DNA from: a virus
Direction: 5' to 3' (one strand)
Virus record (IMG/VR): IMGVR_UViG_3300047459_000178
Coordinates: 1 to 22,276 of that record
Length of the DNA stretch: 22,276 nt
Part shown: positions 1-7,499 of the stretch, in pieces
How positions within the stretch are numbered: position 1 is the first letter of the stretch
Layout: each line of letters starts with the position of its first letter
Position numbers and translations under genes: made by a program
Notes under the pieces: model-generated
What the model saw: the letters and a program-made list of their open reading frames with translations, nothing else
Database searches by the model: none
Told to the model about the DNA's origin: nothing

Positions 1-440
1 TGACTCCAATATGGTTGTATATAATACGCATGATACCACATTGCACCTTCTGTCAAATCAAAATACTGACCGTCCAGTATTTCGTCTGCAAGTTTTAAAC
101 TCTCCGCCCAAGTTTTACTGTCTTTTGGTTTGTCTGATTTGCCATCACAAAACCAAGAGAACTGACACATTCCTAATTTAGGAATGGTCTTACCTGTCCA
201 AGAGGTTCGCCATTCTTTTGTTTGATAAACTACTCCACAAATTGAATCGGGAAATTTATCATGTTCTACACGATTTAAAACTACGTTAGCAACTGCAATC
301 TGTCCTGCAAGAGGTTGATTACCTGCTTCAAAATATATGTTTTGAGCAAGACAATGAGTGTCCATCTCTAGTTCTAAACCTTCCACTTTTGTAGCTCCTA
401 AAAGAAGCGCACAAAATACTAAGATATTTATTAGTTTCAT
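1..440 (-). CDS. SleB-type cell wall hydrolase (Hydrolase_2 family), C-terminus beyond window
   Basis: The reading frame opens at ATG 440 and runs off the window edge after about 146 codons. Residues 1-21 (MKLINILVFCALLLGATKVEG) form a signal peptide with a short basic start and hydrophobic core. The mature part carries hallmarks of the SleB/CwlJ hydrolase family (PF07486): NIYFEAGNQPLAGQIAVANV with the conserved glutamate, VVLNRV, FPDSICGVVYQ and GMCQFSWFCDG. The family cleaves peptidoglycan, so I infer an exported muralytic enzyme: endolysin or exolysin, or a wall-remodelling partner of the curli cassette directly upstream. It has its own promoter (448-486) with no Shine-Dalgarno sequence before the ATG, so it is regulated apart from the cassette that ends at 490. 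Family call is firm; the role in lysis is inference. Confidence 0.88.
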   Translation of the reverse strand, partial: MKLINILVFCALLLGATKVEGLELEMDTHCLAQNIYFEAGNQPLAGQIAVANVVLNRVEHDKFPDSICGVVYQTKEWRTSWTGKTIPKLGMCQFSWFCDGKSDKPKDSKTWAESLKLADEILDGQYFDLTEGAMWYHAYYIQPYWS

Positions 441-447
441 ATACACT

Positions 448-489: not shown

Positions 490-1158
490 TTAGTTGCCCT
501 GAGAAACGTTTATACTGCAACCACCTACTGTATGGCAGGTATTTGTTATATTGTATGACTGATTAGTCGAACCTTGTTGTAATAGATTTAAATTAGTATG
601 TTCTGAACCTTGTAGTGTTATTCTTGCTTGATGACTACCACTTCCTTTTTGTTCAATATCTGTGATTGAATCATGTGAATTTTGATAATAGTATATGTGT
701 GCGTAATGACTTCCTGAACCTTCTTGCCAGTTTTCGTGTTCTACACCATTAACGTGAATGTCTAAATTGAATTCGTGAGTTCCATTTTGGTAAACGTCAA
801 CTTCGTTATTGTTACCCCATATGTGTCTACCGTATGTAGCACCGTCAATCTGTGTTACTGTTTCTGTGTTACCAGTACCGTCAACATCACCACCCCAAGT
901 TCTTCCTGAACCCCAGTATGATACCCAAGAGATTGAGTTACCATTCCCTGATTGGGATAGAGTAAAAGTGTTGTTAGCATGTGCAAAAGTAAAATCGATA
1001 TGGTTATCATATCCTATCTGCGTAATGTTAACATTTGCATTATCACCGTCAGCAACTTGGTCTATGTGCACATGATTATGTTCGTCACCAGCAAAGCACT
1101 GTCCTACAAAGAACAATAAAATTACTGCAATCCCTAAATGAGTTCCAGTTATTTTCAT
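490..1158 (-). CDS. Curlin-like secreted amyloid protein (second, distal copy)
   Basis: 222 residues from ATG 1158, which overlaps the stop of the 46-residue gene in an ATGA; a GTG 39 nt further upstream is possible but lies inside that gene. An N-terminal signal peptide (to about residue 23, ending GQCFA) precedes a mature chain very rich in Asn, Gln, Gly, Ser, His and Thr. It has imperfect repeats of the curlin type, alternating beta strands with Gln/Asn ladders (for example ITQIGYDNHIDF, LSQSGNGNSISW, LLQQGSTNQSYNI). Two cysteines flank a short loop near the end (NTCHTVGGCSINVSQGN), as in its paralogue at 2388-3113. CsgG and CsgF lie in the same operon, so this is probably a fibre subunit or nucleator exported through the CsgG pore. 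Which of the two paralogues is CsgA-like and which CsgB-like cannot be decided. Last gene of the cassette. Confidence 0.8.
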   Translation of the reverse strand: MKITGTHLGIAVILLFFVGQCFAGDEHNHVHIDQVADGDNANVNITQIGYDNHIDFTFAHANNTFTLSQSGNGNSISWVSYWGSGRTWGGDVDGTGNTETVTQIDGATYGRHIWGNNNEVDVYQNGTHEFNLDIHVNGVEHENWQEGSGSHYAHIYYYQNSHDSITDIEQKGSGSHQARITLQGSEHTNLNLLQQGSTNQSYNITNTCHTVGGCSINVSQGN

Positions 1159-1295
1159 TCTTGATTGTGACGTGGGTCTTGTTGTTGTTTTATCCACTCT
1201 TCTATTCTTTTTTGTTGTTCTGCAATTGTTTCTGCTTGGTCTTTAATTTTCTTTTCTTGAAATCTAAGTCTTTGCTGTTGTTGTTTTTGGCTCAT
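1155..1295 (-). CDS. 46-residue Gln-rich coiled-coil protein, translationally coupled inside the curli cassette
   Basis: The frame starts at ATG 1295, whose A is shared with the stop of the FecR gene (TAATG), and ends with a TGA overlapping the ATG of the distal curlin gene (ATGA). The product has 46 residues, begins MSQKQQQQRLRFQEKK and is mostly Gln, Glu, Lys and Arg. It is predicted to be one charged alpha-helix or short coiled coil, with no signal peptide or membrane segment. The double overlap is the same coupling seen between recognised genes nearby, which is strong evidence that it is translated. Function is unknown. It could be a cytoplasmic chaperone or timing device for the curlin translated next, or its main task may be to couple translation. 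Confidence 0.7.
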   Translation of the reverse strand: MSQKQQQQRLRFQEKKIKDQAETIAEQQKRIEEWIKQQQDPRHNQE

Positions 1296-2428
1296 TAATT
1301 TTGTTGTGTAATAATAATATTGATTGCTTGGTCGCCACCCATATTAATTACACTCTCCTTTTCGTTAGTTACGGTCACTATTTGTGCCATTGCGTCTACT
1401 GGTAATTTAATACTTATGGTTCCGTTTACTTCACGATAGAACGTAACCAATCCACTTCCTGTATCAACTATTGTATTGTACTGCGTGTCTTTATCAAAAC
1501 CTATAGCAGTACCTTCTATTCCAAATGTATTTCCACCACTGTCTGCAGTTCTGTTTATCCCTACTTTCCTATCTAACTCTTCTACAATATCAAGTAAGTC
1601 CTGTAAAAAGTCAACATCTAATAGGTCTATATCTAATTCAGTAAATTCTAATTCACCTTCTGAGTCTTTCAATGCGTCTGCATCAAGACCGTCAAACTCT
1701 AAAAAGTCTACGTCCAAGATACCACCGTCATTTGATTCTGTAGCAGACTCCTCTATCACCCTAGAAATATCTTTGGGTTGACTCACAATAAACATATTAT
1801 TAATCAAACTTGATGTAATATTGTTTATTACTACAGGTGCAGTTGGGTATGAATTTAAAGTAGATACCATTGTGGCTTGATATGCTTCTTCTAATACTAC
1901 GTCTGTACCCGATTCATTACTAACTGTAATCGAACCTGATGCGTCACCATTTGCGTCAGGCAAAAGTATAATAAGACTTCGCCCGAGTTCATCGATGGTT
2001 GTCGTAAAATCTGTGCCATTAATCGCTATGTTAGCAGTTGGCGTAGAAATCGCAATGTTCGATTTATTCATTTTACCTAGTTTACCTGAGGCAAAACGAG
2101 CTGTACCCATTACCATTCTCATCGACATTTTCGATAAGTCGGGATTAGGGTCATAATATACTTCGTCTATGTAGACCAGTGTATGTTCTGTTAATGCAAG
2201 TTCTTCTTCGTCTAAGAACTCAATTAGCATTCTCCCATTCCCAGTTTCCGCCTCGTCATAGAGGTTTATACTAGGAAAATCAGTAGAGGGTATTTTATTA
2301 CCTTCTCTGATAATGTTTCCAATACCAGTTTGTTCGACTATGTCTCCTATCGTATCCGCATAAGAGGGATACGACAGAAGTATAGCACTAATCGTTAGTA
2401 TCTTTTTGGTTAATTGTAACTGTAGCAT
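1295..2428 (-). CDS. Exported FecR-domain protein of the curli cassette
   Basis: 377 residues with a signal peptide (residues 1-24, cleavage after SYPSYA). Residues about 65-155 match the FecR domain (PF04773): LTEHTLVYIDEVYYDP, then MGTARFASGKLGKMNKSNIA and STPTANIAINGTDF, the usual end of the fold. A middle section rich in Asp, Glu and Leu (about 225-285) looks like a flexible acidic linker, and the chain ends INIIITQQN, resembling the last strand of the two curlin-like proteins. In bacteria, periplasmic FecR-domain proteins occur beside curli or other surface-polymer genes. I infer a periplasmic partner of curlin export or a minor fibre component. It overlaps the upstream curlin gene by 41 nt and the 46-residue gene by 1 nt. 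The start is the only in-frame ATG that keeps the whole signal peptide. Confidence 0.8.
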   Translation of the reverse strand: MLQLQLTKKILTISAILLSYPSYADTIGDIVEQTGIGNIIREGNKIPSTDFPSINLYDEAETGNGRMLIEFLDEEELALTEHTLVYIDEVYYDPNPDLSKMSMRMVMGTARFASGKLGKMNKSNIAISTPTANIAINGTDFTTTIDELGRSLIILLPDANGDASGSITVSNESGTDVVLEEAYQATMVSTLNSYPTAPVVINNITSSLINNMFIVSQPKDISRVIEESATESNDGGILDVDFLEFDGLDADALKDSEGELEFTELDIDLLDVDFLQDLLDIVEELDRKVGINRTADSGGNTFGIEGTAIGFDKDTQYNTIVDTGSGLVTFYREVNGTISIKLPVDAMAQIVTVTNEKESVINMGGDQAINIIITQQN

Positions 2429-3113
2429 TATCAGAACTCAACTGTAAGTCAATCTTGCCTGGGCATGTTTTATTTCCACATGTACCTGACTGTTGAATAA
2501 TATCCATATTGATACTATCACCCGTATGAACCACTTTTAATTCATGGTCAGATGCGTCAAGTTGTTTTGTGTCAACGTTATTACTGTCACCAGTAATTTC
2601 CATTTCCCATTTAGCTTGGTCTGAATCTATGTCTATAAAGAAATCGTTTGAATCTCCTATTAGCGTTAAATCAAAATCCAAATAGTTAGCACTAGCGGCA
2701 TAACCTTGGTCATAATCCCAAGTGTTACTGCTACCTGTAACTGCGACATTGATGTTTGAGTTATCAGAATCACCAGTATCGCCTATATTCCAATCAAAGA
2801 TATTACTGTCACCAGTGAATACCATATTAATGGTAGAACTATCTAACACAACAGGCCCGAATAGTTGGTTGCTGTTACCGATTTGGTCAAGGTTGAACGT
2901 ATTCGTTGTACCTGTCAAAATCATATCAGTAGCAACCTGACCGTTTACTATAGTTCCACCGAATTTATTTCCGTAACCAACTTGGTCAATCGTTAATGTT
3001 AACGTATCACCTGATTGTTGCAAAAATATTTCGTTGTCGTCATCAGCTAAAAGAGGCATTACAGACATTGCAAACAATAAACCTAAACATAATTTTAGTT
3101 TATTCATTTTCAT
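2388..3113 (-). CDS. Curlin-like secreted amyloid protein (first, proximal copy)
   Basis: I choose ATG 3113 (or 3107, two codons later) because the signal peptide MKMNKLKLCLGLLFAMSVMP begins there; more upstream in-frame starts lie deep inside csgG. The mature chain starts DDDNEIFLQQ and contains at least six imperfect repeats built on T-G-x-S-N followed by alternating hydrophobic and polar residues, for example LTGTTNTFNLDQ, FTGDSNIFDWN, VTGSSNTWDYDQ and ITGDSNNVDTKQ. This fits a beta-solenoid amyloid with Asn/Asp/Gln ladders. A Cys pair (SGTCGNKTCPG) and a final strand ATVTINQK close the protein. Length is well above the roughly 150 residues of E. coli CsgA/CsgB. It overlaps csgG by 8-14 nt. 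Identification as curlin rests on composition, repeats and the CsgG/CsgF context, not on a strict CsgA consensus. Confidence 0.8.
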   Translation of the reverse strand: MKMNKLKLCLGLLFAMSVMPLLADDDNEIFLQQSGDTLTLTIDQVGYGNKFGGTIVNGQVATDMILTGTTNTFNLDQIGNSNQLFGPVVLDSSTINMVFTGDSNIFDWNIGDTGDSDNSNINVAVTGSSNTWDYDQGYAASANYLDFDLTLIGDSNDFFIDIDSDQAKWEMEITGDSNNVDTKQLDASDHELKVVHTGDSINMDIIQQSGTCGNKTCPGKIDLQLSSDNATVTINQKDTND

Positions 3114-4008
3114 ATTCGTCTTTATTCTCCTCGATGGCATGTCTTTCATTACCGCCATCTATTTTATGAGGGTGTCTATGTCGGCCGTCAATTGTCCAGT
3201 ATTTTCTATCGTGTCCTTGATAAATCATTTCTAGAACAGCAGCTTCTATAGCAGCCCTCGTTGCAAAAGTCACCGACTCATTCTCTGTCACACCGTCCTC
3301 AATTTCAATGAGTTGGGTATCCATATCTACAAATTTAAATACATCGAATCCTTGCGATACACTTAGTACAGTCTTCTTGGTCTGAACGTTCATAAGAACT
3401 TCACCAGTAAGTGTACTAACTGCTCTTAAAGAAACGACAATCGTATCTCTACGATAAGCAGTCGAGTGTCCAATCCCTAATGTTCTTGCACCTCGGCCAC
3501 CAGTTTCCATATTGGTATCATACCCTATAATTCCACCTTCGAGTATGATGCCAGCAAATAAAAGAGGTTGAATAGTTTCTTTACTTTCACCCTCTTCTTG
3601 AAATTGTTCTCTTGTACTTCTGACTATTTGTCTTTCACGTACAAGATTATCTAATCCTTCTCTTTCAACTACACGGAACCAACTTCCACCCCCTGCAGTT
3701 TTGAGTGCGTCTATCAACATTGCAGTCACTCCTTGACTGACTGCTGTACTAAATGTTGCGACACCGTCTTGTCTTTTTCTTTGTCCTGTTAGGTCTTTAA
3801 ACCCATAAACAGCAACCACTGGCATAACCTCAGCGGCTGGTAAATCTAATAATAATGCATATGCTGGAAGTTTGATTGCTTCAGGCTCTTCAATACATTC
3901 TCCGTACTCATTCATTATCAGAGATGTACAGGAATCTTTCATGTGCGGTATCCCTGCACAACTAGATAGCAAGAGTCCGAGCACTCCAACTAATAAAAGA
4001 TTCTTCAC
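3100..4008 (-). CDS. csgG: CsgG, outer-membrane lipoprotein secretion channel of the curli system
   Basis: 302 residues, GTG start at 4008 in a TAGTG overlap with csgF. The lipoprotein signal ends in the lipobox LSSC with Cys17. The body follows CsgG closely: VVAVYGFKDLTGQRK, FSTAVSQGVTAMLIDAL, RVVEREGLDNLVRERQIVR, IILEGGIIGYDTNMETGG, GARTLGIG, VVSLRAVSTLTGEVL and a late ATRAAIEAAVLEMIYQG. E. coli CsgG forms a nonameric beta-barrel pore in the outer membrane that exports curlin subunits. Expression of this copy would place a constitutively open pore in the infected host. The extension after about residue 275 is His/Asn/Lys/Glu-rich and specific to this copy. Next to csgF and two curlin-like genes, the assignment is among the safest in the window. 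Confidence 0.95.
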   Translation of the reverse strand: MKNLLLVGVLGLLLSSCAGIPHMKDSCTSLIMNEYGECIEEPEAIKLPAYALLLDLPAAEVMPVVAVYGFKDLTGQRKRQDGVATFSTAVSQGVTAMLIDALKTAGGGSWFRVVEREGLDNLVRERQIVRSTREQFQEEGESKETIQPLLFAGIILEGGIIGYDTNMETGGRGARTLGIGHSTAYRRDTIVVSLRAVSTLTGEVLMNVQTKKTVLSVSQGFDVFKFVDMDTQLIEIEDGVTENESVTFATRAAIEAAVLEMIYQGHDRKYWTIDGRHRHPHKIDGGNERHAIEENKDEYENE

Positions 4009-4499
4009 TAAAAACCCCCAGTACCAATTGGAATTTCAATAGTTGTTGTAGTTCCGTCACTACCGACAATTGTCATTACAATCCAATCGTCACATAGTCC
4101 GTCATCAGTACATATGTTCTTCCTTTCGTAAGTAATTGTATTTCCTTCCAGTGTAAACGTTCCGTAGTTTGCACCTTCTTCGTTTGAGAACATGTTTTCA
4201 ACTAACTGTTTTGATAGCTGAGCATAGATTCTCGATTCCAAATTCCTTATGAATTTGGCTAAAACTGTATTTTCTGCTTCTCTTTGCTGTTTCAAAAGAG
4301 CTGCCCTAATGTCCTCAGCAATCTTGTCTGTCCTAGACTTCTCCTGATTCTCAATTGTCAAGTAATGGGCAGAAGTTCCCACGCCACTAAAGCTGGGGTT
4401 TTTAAATTTATGTACCAGTTCGTCTGATTGTACTGTCGGAGAAATGACACATAGTGTTATCATTGCAAATGTTATACCAAAAATTTTACTTCTTTTCAT
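4008..4499 (-). CDS. csgF: CsgF, curli assembly factor
   Basis: 163 residues, with signal peptide about 1-25 (ending PTVQS). The mature start HKFKNPSFSG matches the CsgF opening F-x-F-x-N-P-x-F-G-G, the segment that in E. coli inserts into and constricts the CsgG channel. The C-terminal half has the beta-rich CsgF pattern (FTLEGNTITYERK, then WIVMTIVGSDGTTTTIEIPI). A CDDGL-type Cys pair (ICTDDGLCDD) is an addition not in E. coli CsgF. Residues about 50-110 form a charged helix. ATG 4499 lies inside the end of the preceding gene (14-nt overlap), with GAGG 6 nt before it. CsgF couples the pore to the nucleator at the cell surface. CsgE is not recognisable in this window. Confidence 0.92.
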   Translation of the reverse strand: MKRSKIFGITFAMITLCVISPTVQSDELVHKFKNPSFSGVGTSAHYLTIENQEKSRTDKIAEDIRAALLKQQREAENTVLAKFIRNLESRIYAQLSKQLVENMFSNEEGANYGTFTLEGNTITYERKNICTDDGLCDDWIVMTIVGSDGTTTTIEIPIGTGGF

Positions 4500-4782
4500 T
4501 TGTTACCTCTTCGAGTGCCTGCTTTTCTTTTGCGTCCTGCAAAAGTTCTTGGCGCTCACGATATTCCAAAACAGTGTTCACCTTTTCTTGAAGACGAAGC
4601 ATGTCTTGGTCTAGCATTCTTAGCTGGTCAGTCAATTTTATACTTGCTGTAAACATGCGTCCGAGTGCTGGTTTAACTTCAATGGTAATGAATTTCCAAA
4701 CATACCATATGAAGTATCCCATACCCATAGACATTACAACTGGAAACCCAAACTCTGCGATTAATTGAGCAAGATTTTCCAT
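4486..4782 (-). CDS. Small single-pass membrane protein with cytoplasmic coiled coil (paralogue B)
   Basis: 98 residues. The layout is a short polar N-terminus (MENLAQLIAEFG), one transmembrane helix (about 12-34, FPVVMSMGMGYFIWYVWKF), then a charged helix with heptad character (QLRMLDQDMLRLQEKVNTVL) and a Lys/Glu-rich tail. The gene just upstream (4787-5080) has the same plan and alignable residues (AEFGFPVVMSMGMGYFIWY against SEVGIPIGTAVVMAFFIYL), so the two look like tandem duplicates. The layout also resembles UviB/BhlA-type holin-like proteins. Because it leads directly into csgF with a 14-nt overlap, it may be an inner-membrane accessory of the curli system. No function is established. 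Confidence 0.78.
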   Translation of the reverse strand: MENLAQLIAEFGFPVVMSMGMGYFIWYVWKFITIEVKPALGRMFTASIKLTDQLRMLDQDMLRLQEKVNTVLEYRERQELLQDAKEKQALEEVTNEKK

Positions 4783-4786
4783 GGTC

Positions 4787-5080
4787 TTAGTCTCGTCTGG
4801 CGTCTATACTTCCATCCTCAACAAAGTTTTCTGCTCTAGCAACACGGTCAATTGGTGGTGCTAGTTCTAATGCACTACTTACTAATAAATCTATTTTAAT
4901 AATATCATTATTCATAACACGTGCTCGTGTTTCGAGCATGCTTATAATGTTTTCGGTGGACGAAATCTGACCCAGTACAGACTCAAAAATATATTTTAAG
5001 GTCAGATAGATAAAGAAAGCCATCACTACCGCAGTCCCGATAGGGATTCCGACTTCACTTAAAAATTGAAATATGTCCAT
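4787..5080 (-). CDS. Small single-pass membrane protein with coiled coil (paralogue A), first gene of the late curli operon
   Basis: 97 residues. The N-terminal segment MDIFQFLSEVGIPIG is followed by a transmembrane helix (about 15-33), then a helix with spaced Leu/Ile/Met (ENIISMLETRARVMNNDIIK) and an acidic tail. It is paralogous to the next gene. It directly follows a perfect T4-type late box TATAAATA (5093-5086), with only GTCGT between box and ATG, and no Shine-Dalgarno sequence. The expected +1 is the A of the ATG, so the mRNA should be leaderless. All downstream genes to 490 are overlapping or within 4 nt, so this promoter probably drives the whole cassette. Holin-like or curli-accessory roles are both open. 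Confidence 0.78.
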   Translation of the reverse strand: MDIFQFLSEVGIPIGTAVVMAFFIYLTLKYIFESVLGQISSTENIISMLETRARVMNNDIIKIDLLVSSALELAPPIDRVARAENFVEDGSIDARRD

Positions 5081-5085
5081 ACGAC

Positions 5086-5093
5086 TATTTATA
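5086..5093 (-). promoter_or_regulatory. T4-type late promoter box TATAAATA for the curli cassette
   Basis: Perfect TATAAATA on the minus strand, recognised in T4 by gp55-RNA polymerase with the gp45 clamp; both factors are encoded in this window. It ends 5 nt before ATG 5080. With the T4 spacing (box at -13 to -6), +1 is the A of that ATG. The 17045-17052 copy has identical spacing to its gene. Confidence 0.8.
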
Positions 5094-6700: not shown

Positions 6701-6972
6701 GCAGTGTGACTTCTAAAAGAATCTACAAGGTCTTCACCTTTCAATTCTTCTCCAAATTTGTATACCTCTTTTCCATTTTGTTCTCTTATGGTTACGCCAC
6801 TGTTATATGTAATATCAGTAACATAACCGTTATCGAGAAATTTTTCGGATTCTTCTGTTTCATAGAACATGGAATACAACCTATGTATTTGTAAGGTATG
6901 TACTCCTTTCGCCCACTCTTCTGCTTCGAGAAGTTCTCGTTGACGTTGTACTATTTCATCAAACTCACTCAT
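6697..6972 (-). CDS. Small acidic protein of unknown function inside the clamp-loader operon
   Basis: 91 residues from ATG 6972, chosen because it overlaps the peroxiredoxin stop (ATGA); an upstream in-frame start would add a basic stretch encoded within that gene. The N-terminal third is a charged helix (MSEFDEIVQRQRELLEAEEW), followed by a probably beta-rich part (YVTDITYNSGVTIREQNGKE). No signal peptide, membrane segment or known motif is visible. It ends in an ATGA overlap with gp62. Placement between peroxiredoxin and gp62 means it is co-translated with the replisome proteins, but no replication role can be read from the sequence. Confidence 0.78.
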   Translation of the reverse strand: MSEFDEIVQRQRELLEAEEWAKGVHTLQIHRLYSMFYETEESEKFLDNGYVTDITYNSGVTIREQNGKEVYKFGEELKGEDLVDSFRSHTA

Positions 6973-7499
6973 GCAACGAAATCGTCTCCTTCGTTCCATT
7001 CACAACCAGTCAATCCACCAGCTTGAATTGCTTTCAAAGTTCTAAGAACTTCTTGAGCATTTCTACCAGTAGATAATCCATTGACTGATACGTGTTGAAT
7101 GACTCTATCTTTATCAAAGATAAATGTTGCACGATTACAGACACCTTGTTCTTCATTGACAATGCCAAGTTCAGAAGATAATTTGAGTCCACAATCAGCC
7201 GCAAGTGTGTGTTTGATTTCTCTAATAACACCATTCGCTTGTTTCCAAGCAGACTTACAGAATTCATTATCACCTGAAATACCAATCACGTTTGCATGGT
7301 CAACTAATATGTCCATACCAGCAATCTCAGTTGGACAGATAAAAGTAAAGTCTTTTGGATAAAAGTAAACTACTGTCCACTCATGTTTGAGTGGCGTATA
7401 ACCCTCAGCGATTTGAACTTCAACGAAGTCATTGTTAGCGTCAATTCCATTTAATTTTACAGGCGGGAATTGGTCACCTACAGTTAGCATTCCTAACAT
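6969..7499 (-). CDS. AhpC/TSA-family peroxiredoxin
   Basis: 176 residues. The peroxidatic site is FYPKDFTFICPTEIAG with Cys55, and Thr52 and the preceding Pro are in place. GRNAQEVLRTL supplies the conserved Arg region and GGLTGCEWNEGDD holds a C-terminal Cys166 at the usual resolving position, so it looks like a complete AhpC-type 2-Cys enzyme that reduces H2O2 or organic peroxides. Additional cysteines at 81, 103 and 121 are unusual. ATG 7499 shares its A with the gp44 stop (TAATG), and AGGAG lies 6 nt before it. It sits inside the DNA replication operon, between gp44 and gp62, so it is made early and would protect replication against oxidative stress. Probably acquired from a bacterial host. 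The reductant is not encoded nearby. Confidence 0.92.
   Translation of the reverse strand: MLGMLTVGDQFPPVKLNGIDANNDFVEVQIAEGYTPLKHEWTVVYFYPKDFTFICPTEIAGMDILVDHANVIGISGDNEFCKSAWKQANGVIREIKHTLAADCGLKLSSELGIVNEEQGVCNRATFIFDKDRVIQHVSVNGLSTGRNAQEVLRTLKAIQAGGLTGCEWNEGDDFVA

Follow-up and report, generated by a model that had tools for sequence, protein, structure and literature searches.

Gene content of the cassette

The stretch of DNA analysed here (the window) is a 22,276-base viral fragment from IMG/VR (record IMGVR_UViG_3300047459_000178), and its minus strand holds, at 490-5080, eight genes that, judged by their sequences, make up a pelagimyophage-type curli (type VIII secretion, T8SS) cassette of a kind that has already been published. 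In the order of reading, these genes encode small 1 (4787-5080), a membrane protein of 97 amino acids (aa) with one helix and a predicted cytoplasmic coiled coil; small 2 (4486-4782), its 98-aa paralogue, the two matching phrog_18771 at 2.1e-24 and 4.5e-23; CsgF (4008-4499; PF10614, 2.3e-14) with the N-terminal segment FKNPSF, which is of the FxNPxF type; CsgG (3100-4008; PF03783, 1.7e-53), the putative outer-membrane lipoprotein pore; curlin 1 (2388-3158), an exported protein with curlin-type repeats that is predicted to be all-beta; an exported FecR-domain protein (1295-2428; PF04773, 2.6e-6, and an AlphaFold2 model); a 46-aa charged coiled-coil open reading frame (ORF) that is translationally coupled (1155-1295; ORF list and synteny); and curlin 2 (490-1197), an exported protein with three stretches of curlin repeats (PF07012, 8.8e-7). 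The genes overlap or lie 4 nt apart: from small 1 to curlin 2, a gap of 4 nt is followed by overlaps of 14, 1, 59, 41, 1 and 43 nt.

An earlier note on this DNA, made from its letters alone, had read csgF, csgG, a FecR-domain gene, two curlin-like genes, the 46-residue ORF and a paralogous pair on one strand; the ORFs are all in place and, in the profile searches that the note proposed, CsgG, CsgF, FecR and one curlin (490-1197) score above the Pfam curated cut-offs. The note also called the cassette complete, which is the case only if the adenylate cyclase gene beyond the window is counted, and not within the window alone. The surroundings are T4-like, as it had stated, with RegA, two clamp-loader subunits and the sliding clamp forming a replication block upstream of the cassette; three small ORFs separate RegA from the cassette. 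No Rfam family and no tRNA was detected in the window.

Residues 47-277 of the CsgG protein align with the solved CsgG of E. coli (4uv3) at 9.3e-47, so that the structural similarity on which the earlier reading had been made to depend is there, and a lipobox is found in 127 of the 141 distinct phage CsgG sequences. The N-terminal motif of CsgF is present in 145 of 149 distinct phage sequences in a loose form and in 105 of the 149 in the strict form FxNPxF; a search with CsgF against the sequences in PDB gave chance matches only. As for the two curlins, curlin 2 is borne out by its PF07012 match, and curlin 1 has an orthologue in Methylophilales phage Melnitz (L002) in which the PF07012 repeat scores above the cut-off (8.6e-6). 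The NCBIfam CsgA match of curlin 1 itself (6.9e-4) is far below the cut-off of that model, and its AlphaFold2 model (predicted local distance difference test, pLDDT, 80.4; predicted template modelling score, pTM, 0.75) finds no solved structure at E <1e-3, the top matches being loose beta-helix resemblances. Curlin 1 is the least certain of the gene assignments.

The phage cassette and E. coli curli (csgBAC-csgDEFG) have in common the CsgG and CsgF families and the curlin repeats. The phage cassette differs in lacking CsgE (none in the 10 records searched, with a positive E. coli control), in showing no CsgC or CsgD match among its proteins, and in possessing the FecR-domain protein, a CHASE2 adenylate cyclase and the small membrane pair. 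According to the accessible text of PMC3521004, the Alphaproteobacteria are all devoid of csgE, and therefore CsgE is not defining outside the Gammaproteobacteria and their like.

In Pelagibacter phage HTVC008M, curlin 2 (L001, 10638-11963) has a PA14 domain (2.7e-6) fused to the curlin repeats, which curlin 2 of the window does not. This domain is possibly a sugar-binding fibre tip, and the fusion would fit an adhesive fibre; it goes without mention in the accessible parts of PMC7029224, PMC9004378 and PMC9599517.

Conservation among marine viruses

The cassette was compared across 83 loci, namely the window, HTVC008M, Melnitz and the best 80 of the 167 IMG/VR stretches that encode a CsgG relative; these are the closest relatives of the window and not a random sample. 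As far as the contigs extend, the gene order is identical in 83/83 loci, with no other order among the gene strings. Wherever the contig has room, the expected neighbour stands on the expected side, for csgF (81/81), small 2 (78/78), small 1 (76/76), curlin 1 (82/82), FecR (71/71), the second curlin (52/52) and the cyclase (39/39); in a single locus (L056), FecR is broken into two frames. All of the 80 viral loci fetched contain the cassette. An assembly chimera, of which the earlier note would have taken absence of the cassette from related genomes as a sign, is ruled out by this common gene order. The seven window cassette genes tested and the cyclase evolve under purifying selection, with median dN/dS from 0.055 (small 1) to 0.129 (curlin 1), compared with 0.155 for the hydrolase described below and 0.060 for regA, all of these being rough values obtained from ten loci of the window lineage with dS near saturation.

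The window shares the gene set and order (small pair, CsgF, CsgG, curlin, FecR, curlin, cyclase) with HTVC008M, Melnitz and uncultured pelagiphages; its CsgG is 45.5% identical to that of HTVC008M and 50.2% to that of Melnitz over the aligned parts. Compared with the HTVC008M and Melnitz cassettes, only the window lineage has the cassette between RegA and the next module, a hydrolase gene before the cyclase, and the extra 46-aa ORF (16/83 loci, all of this lineage). The curli cassette, including curlins, FecR and cyclase, has been described in PMC7029224, PMC9004378 and PMC9599517, so that the statement in the earlier note, that CsgG and CsgF of marine T4-like phages were in print with no function shown, was correct.

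Among annotated phages, a search with the CsgG protein matches 7 of 50,697 records: HTVC008M (under two accessions), four Melnitz strains and OR851715.1. The last of these is an unannotated 1,499-base ‘Salmonella phage' record with a pelagiphage-like CsgG (43% identity) and is possibly a stray marine fragment. At the other end of the size range, the curli cassette is accompanied by a T4-type Gp23 capsid protein in the contigs L311 (357,559 bases), L281 (339,794 bases) and L255 (250,519 bases); because these viral contigs of 250-357 kb encode T4-type Gp23, very large T4-like phages evidently bear the cassette as well. In L311, the cassette is partly rearranged.

A late-promoter motif

The motif TATAAATA, which we take to be the T4 late promoter consensus, lies at 5086-5093 on the minus strand, exactly 5 nt ahead of the ATG of small 1. 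The same motif is present in 68 of 153 distinct small 1 upstream regions; 110 of the 153 have ATAAATA in the 120 nt ahead of the gene, compared with 6.2% of shuffled regions. Upstream of the other genes, the counts of ATAAATA are 0/154 (small 2), 1/152 (csgF), 0/145 (csgG), 4/143 (curlin 1), 0/125 (FecR), 10/99 (curlin 2), 1/42 (cyclase) and 0/69 (regA). The 5-nt spacing between motif and ATG recurs in 62 of 156 upstream regions, and the motif is absent from 35; in Melnitz, it overlaps the start codon. With T4 spacing, we can only infer that the operon message would start at or beside the ATG and be leaderless or nearly so. A single T4-type promoter is thus predicted to drive transcription of the cassette late in infection, in agreement with the late type that the earlier note had assigned to the cassette. 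Full-text searches (here and below, with supplements and subscription papers outside their scope) found no published report of such a promoter ahead of small 1.

Late control argues against two of the proposed uses of the cassette, exclusion and feeding, as main roles. A curlin layer on the surface might shield the infected cell from other phages, superinfection defence being named as a possible benefit in the accessible text of PMC9599517, and the same export machinery would serve this purpose; however, the sole clear promoter motif of the cassette is of the late type, whereas an exclusion gene would be expected to act early, and we consider this explanation unlikely. Alternatively, an ungated CsgG could serve as an uptake pore that admits nutrients or cofactors to a starved host (proposed in PMC7029224 and PMC9599517). 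The absence of a CsgE gate would agree with such a pore, but CsgE is generally missing from the curli systems of Alphaproteobacteria (PMC3521004), a cassette expressed late could feed the host for a short time at most, and the curlins and the tail of the FecR protein would be pointless; the chances of this explanation appear slight indeed.

The FecR-domain protein and its tail

The FecR-domain protein starts with a signal helix (residues 2-18), and its AlphaFold2 model (mean pLDDT 73.8) consists of a FecR fold from residue ∼24, a disordered stretch (∼214-300) and a beta domain (∼302-374). The FecR fold resembles the cell-surface signalling domain of PupR (6ovk; Z 16.2, root-mean-square deviation 2.4, 137 residues aligned), and residues 24-118 resemble 5ix9, a ‘cell surface anchoring domain' that is part of a giant ice-binding adhesin (Z 9.5, root-mean-square deviation 2.4, 73/76 residues). 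At the sequence level, a profile of the protein has no match in PDB up to E 1, and PF04773 is the only family matched at E up to 1, with no anti-sigma domain before the membrane helix; an anti-sigma factor of the inner membrane is therefore an improbable identity for this protein.

The disordered linker has a strongly negative net charge (median -23 in 122 sequences), and the protein ends with the nine residues INIIITQQN (1298-1324, minus strand), which look like the terminal strand of a curlin. The pattern [ILV]x[ILV]xQ is found in the last nine residues of 122/122 distinct phage FecR proteins (closed proteins of at least 330 aa, with split and shorter forms and that of the 357-kb contig left out), mostly followed by one residue and Asn, compared with 245 of the 40,680 internal 9-mers (0.6%) of the same proteins. 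The same pattern occurs within the last 14 residues of curlin 1 (129/132) and curlin 2 (47/55), and in CsgF (1/147), CsgG (0/135), cyclase (0/35), small 1 (0/137) and hydrolase (0/11) it is found in one protein. As a control, 28 closed ORFs were collected over FecR-domain matches elsewhere in one bacterial order; one of these (L358) is the gene of the bacterial operon L092 itself, and none of the remaining 27 has the tail. Because the tail is present in 122/122 phage FecR proteins and 0/27 FecR-domain proteins from elsewhere, it belongs to curli cassettes and not to FecR domains. The tail could seed or cap a fibre, hold the fibre to the pore, or serve as an export signal common to the three proteins. 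No published report of a curlin-like tail on the FecR protein was found in the full-text searches.

The CHASE2 adenylate cyclase

In the near-identical contigs L003-L007 and L009-L011, which continue beyond the position where the window ends, a 616-aa cyclase follows the hydrolase; in L003, it combines CHASE2 (3e-32) with a class III cyclase domain (4.4e-19). The cyclase alignment has 52 rows, namely 45 complete proteins (42 from phage-like loci and 3 bacterial), three that are truncated by the contig and four unrelated ORFs. All six catalytic residues, which bind metal or substrate or stabilize the transition state, are intact in 42 of the 45 complete proteins, with Asn replaced by Ser in the other three. 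Decay of the cyclase, which a crude pattern matching only 20/35 proteins had seemed to indicate, was rejected on the strength of this alignment.

There is a precedent for CHASE2 cyclases that work with an outer-membrane beta-barrel protein (PMC13001267). The Sinorhizobium meliloti pathway (CyaD1, CyaD2, CyaK, NsrA and SMc02177) likewise combines a CHASE2 cyclase with an exported FecR-domain protein, which belongs to the same regulon (PMC5498481), and has an outer-membrane beta-barrel partner (PMC13001267, PMC5498481). Unlike the phage cassette, this pathway includes neither curlins nor CsgG and, in the accessible text of these papers, its FecR-domain protein is an output of the pathway and not a demonstrated sensor.

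The small membrane pair, the hydrolase and lysis

The positive charges (Lys and Arg) are biased towards the part that follows the helix in 130 of 137 distinct small 1 and 142 of 145 distinct small 2 sequences, and therefore the coiled coils of both proteins should be cytoplasmic. This orientation makes a CsgE-like periplasmic gate unlikely. The earlier note had noticed the absence of CsgE, correctly, and had reasoned that specificity might come from the small pair instead; this part is not supported, given that the pair is predicted to face the cytoplasm, that three bacterial operons of the same type do without it, and that the Alphaproteobacteria lack csgE anyway. The ‘histidine kinases' that have been published in front of the operon are probably this pair, matched by position alone. 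A kinase identity was rejected, the proteins being 97-98 aa long with one helix and no kinase domain (11 small 1 and 12 small 2 members match no kinase family at E up to 0.1), and no published report of the pair as lacking such a domain, facing the cytoplasm and occurring only beside cassette genes was found in the full-text searches. Two published readings are corrected, that of FecR as an iron regulator and that of a histidine kinase gene that precedes the operon.

When the small pair was searched alone in viral contigs, the best 80 matches for each protein gave 155 new loci. Among these best matches, 126 of the 128 loci with at least 1.5 kb downstream have csgF or csgG; the two exceptions (L273 and L311) have the cyclase on the opposite strand, and L311 also has a curlin. 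In annotated phages, the pair is found in the same six records as csgG. Bacterial genomes provided 80 further loci, of which 14 were judged phage-like by gene order and 66 were not; in these 66, the pair is absent at 1e-3, the best E value under lax limits being 0.57. The 14 phage-like binned contigs (L084-L089, L093-L096, L101, L103, L106 and L110) are labelled as Bacteroidota, Planctomycetota, Synechococcus, Rhodobacteraceae and Pelagibacter and are likely binning contamination.

A gene for an exported cell wall hydrolase of the SleB type (3-446, minus strand; PF07486/Hydrolase_2, 5.8e-24), cut by the end of the window, follows curlin 2. A hydrolase occupies this place between curlin 2 and the cyclase in 17/83 loci. 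Exactly one hydrolase is encoded in six of the seven large contigs; in five of these six, its distance to the FecR gene is 46-317 kb, and G008, a relative of the window, is the one contig to have it inside the cassette; in Melnitz, it is located ∼7 kb upstream of the cassette. Being single-copy and distant in other phages, the hydrolase was rejected as a part of the cassette, and by its sequence and placement it is best taken as a relocated phage lysin, an interpretation for which the full-text searches found no published report. What lies between curlin 2 and the cyclase varies from locus to locus, and this slot is elsewhere occupied by arginine-rich proteins, by small membrane proteins or by a NifU-type protein. 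The NifU-type iron-sulphur scaffold protein stands before the cyclase in L036 (11984-12466, 2.7e-38) and, by sequence likeness, is also found in L042, L045, L047, L048, L057, L060 and L065. Runs of small proteins very rich in Arg and Lys lie in or beside the slot in L055 (9662-10425) and L071 (10242-11717).

These observations bear on lysis control, the use proposed for Melnitz (PMC9004378), in which CsgG and CsgF, perhaps with a holin-like small pair, would time or help lysis; an opening of the outer membrane for lysis was also among the roles listed in the earlier note. Such a role could draw on the position of the hydrolase inside the cassette in the window lineage (17/83 loci) and on a weak match of small 2 to a phage holin (phrog_4898, 9.4e-4) that covers residues 1-21 only. 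However, the adjoining hydrolase is a single-copy gene located far away in five of the six large contigs and ∼7 kb away in Melnitz, and the small pair, among the best 80 matches for each protein, stays with csgF and csgG or, in the two remaining loci, near a cyclase, and not with lysis modules. That the pair remains with cassette genes among these matches, wherever there is room to see, speaks against a role as lysis proteins. Furthermore, most RegA-bearing relatives lack csgG (2310 records compared with 7), including Pelagibacter phage Mosig, and therefore lysis works without the cassette. Control of lysis would also leave the curlins, the FecR protein and the cyclase unexplained, and is, in our assessment, quite improbable.

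Bacterial counterparts and origin

Three alphaproteobacterial contigs from metagenome-assembled genomes, two of Caulobacteraceae (L090 and L091) and one of Hyphomonas TMED17 (L092), carry csgF-csgG-curlin-(curlin)-FecR-CHASE2 cyclase in the same order as the phage cassette. Unlike the phage cassette, these operons lack the small pair and have bacterial flanks, where ten proteins include TonB receptors, acetyl-CoA hydrolase, fumarylacetoacetate hydrolase, glycosyl transferase, peptidase and amidohydrolase. The curlin-like tail is present on the FecR proteins of L090 and L091. FecR proteins of this operon type are rare: among 299 genomes of one bacterial order, four have a match at E 1e-20 or better and a single one at E <1e-50. 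The accessible text of PMC9599517 states that the cyclase and the histidine kinase are not found within bacterial T8SS operons. Contrary to this statement with respect to the cyclase, bacterial curli operons can hold both FecR and cyclase, an arrangement for which no published report was found in the full-text searches.

In the CsgG tree (93 rows), a branch with 100/99 support sets apart 28 ordinary bacterial CsgG proteins, and the phage rows include L090 and L092 in their midst; the branches are long. The tree suggests a transfer of CsgG from phage to bacterium, but the approximately unbiased test leaves the alternative standing, in that the phage rows as one group are not rejected (p 0.457).

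Proposed function

From these gene parts, recognized by their sequences, we infer export, a fibre and possibly a signal. CsgG and CsgF would form an outer-membrane pore late in infection, through which the curlins would leave the cell and assemble as beta-solenoid fibres on its surface. The FecR protein would be a periplasmic plug akin to a retention module, whose acidic linker and curlin-like last strand would keep the fibre attached at the pore or nucleate it there, as CsgB does in E. coli. The FecR domain could also inform the CHASE2 cyclase of fibre assembly, and the cyclase would then produce a cyclic nucleotide inside the cell, and the cytoplasm-facing small membrane pair would be an addition of the phage. 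The late coat most likely would render the infected cell and its remains adhesive and so improve the odds of meeting the next host. Taken as a late system for the export of surface fibres with a tethered, possibly sensing FecR protein that makes the infected cell or its remains adhesive, this is the explanation that we tentatively prefer, at somewhat less than even odds. Of the uses of the fibre, we favour adhesion to new hosts, a use that resembles the ‘sibling capture' idea of PMC7029224. The elaborate form of the scheme, a self-checking device spanning the three layers of the envelope, in which the FecR plug seeds and tethers the fibre and signals its state via the CHASE2 cyclase, is a doubtful proposition; if true, the virus would possess an outer-membrane secretion system of its own together with its own transenvelope second-messenger feedback.

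In a related scenario, the fibre would not act on the infected cell but later, once the cell has burst, as a coat on the free virions or on the debris of lysis. Late expression and the PA14-curlin fusion in HTVC008M are compatible with such a coat, but export can proceed only while the cell envelope is alive and equipped with Sec and CsgG, and we give this variant a low probability.

Several observations weigh against an adhesive late fibre with a tethered FecR protein. The window's own curlin 1 matches no Pfam family. The FecR model has a pTM of 0.49, so that the relative placement of its domains is unreliable. The tail might just as well direct export, and it is missing from the FecR protein of L092, one of the three bacterial operons. 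The S. meliloti FecR-domain gene is dispensable for signal perception according to the accessible text of PMC5498481, which weakens the analogy with a sensor. Finally, no clumping was seen in Melnitz infections, as reported in the accessible text of PMC9004378, although Melnitz has the whole cassette. With respect to expression, metatranscripts of phage curli genes have been described (PMC9599517).

The hosts are devoid of this secretion system according to PMC9599517, in the part of its text that is accessible, so that phages of the most abundant marine bacteria appear to import a secretion system that their hosts lack. The published ideas on the use of the cassette remain guesses, which become testable through the late promoter, the FecR tail and the bacterial operons that lack the small pair.

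Outside the cassette, a peroxiredoxin-like gene (6969-7499, minus strand; phrog_20402, 3.1e-9) is located among the clamp-loader genes of the window, and its product was judged, from reading its sequence, to be of the AhpC/TSA type.

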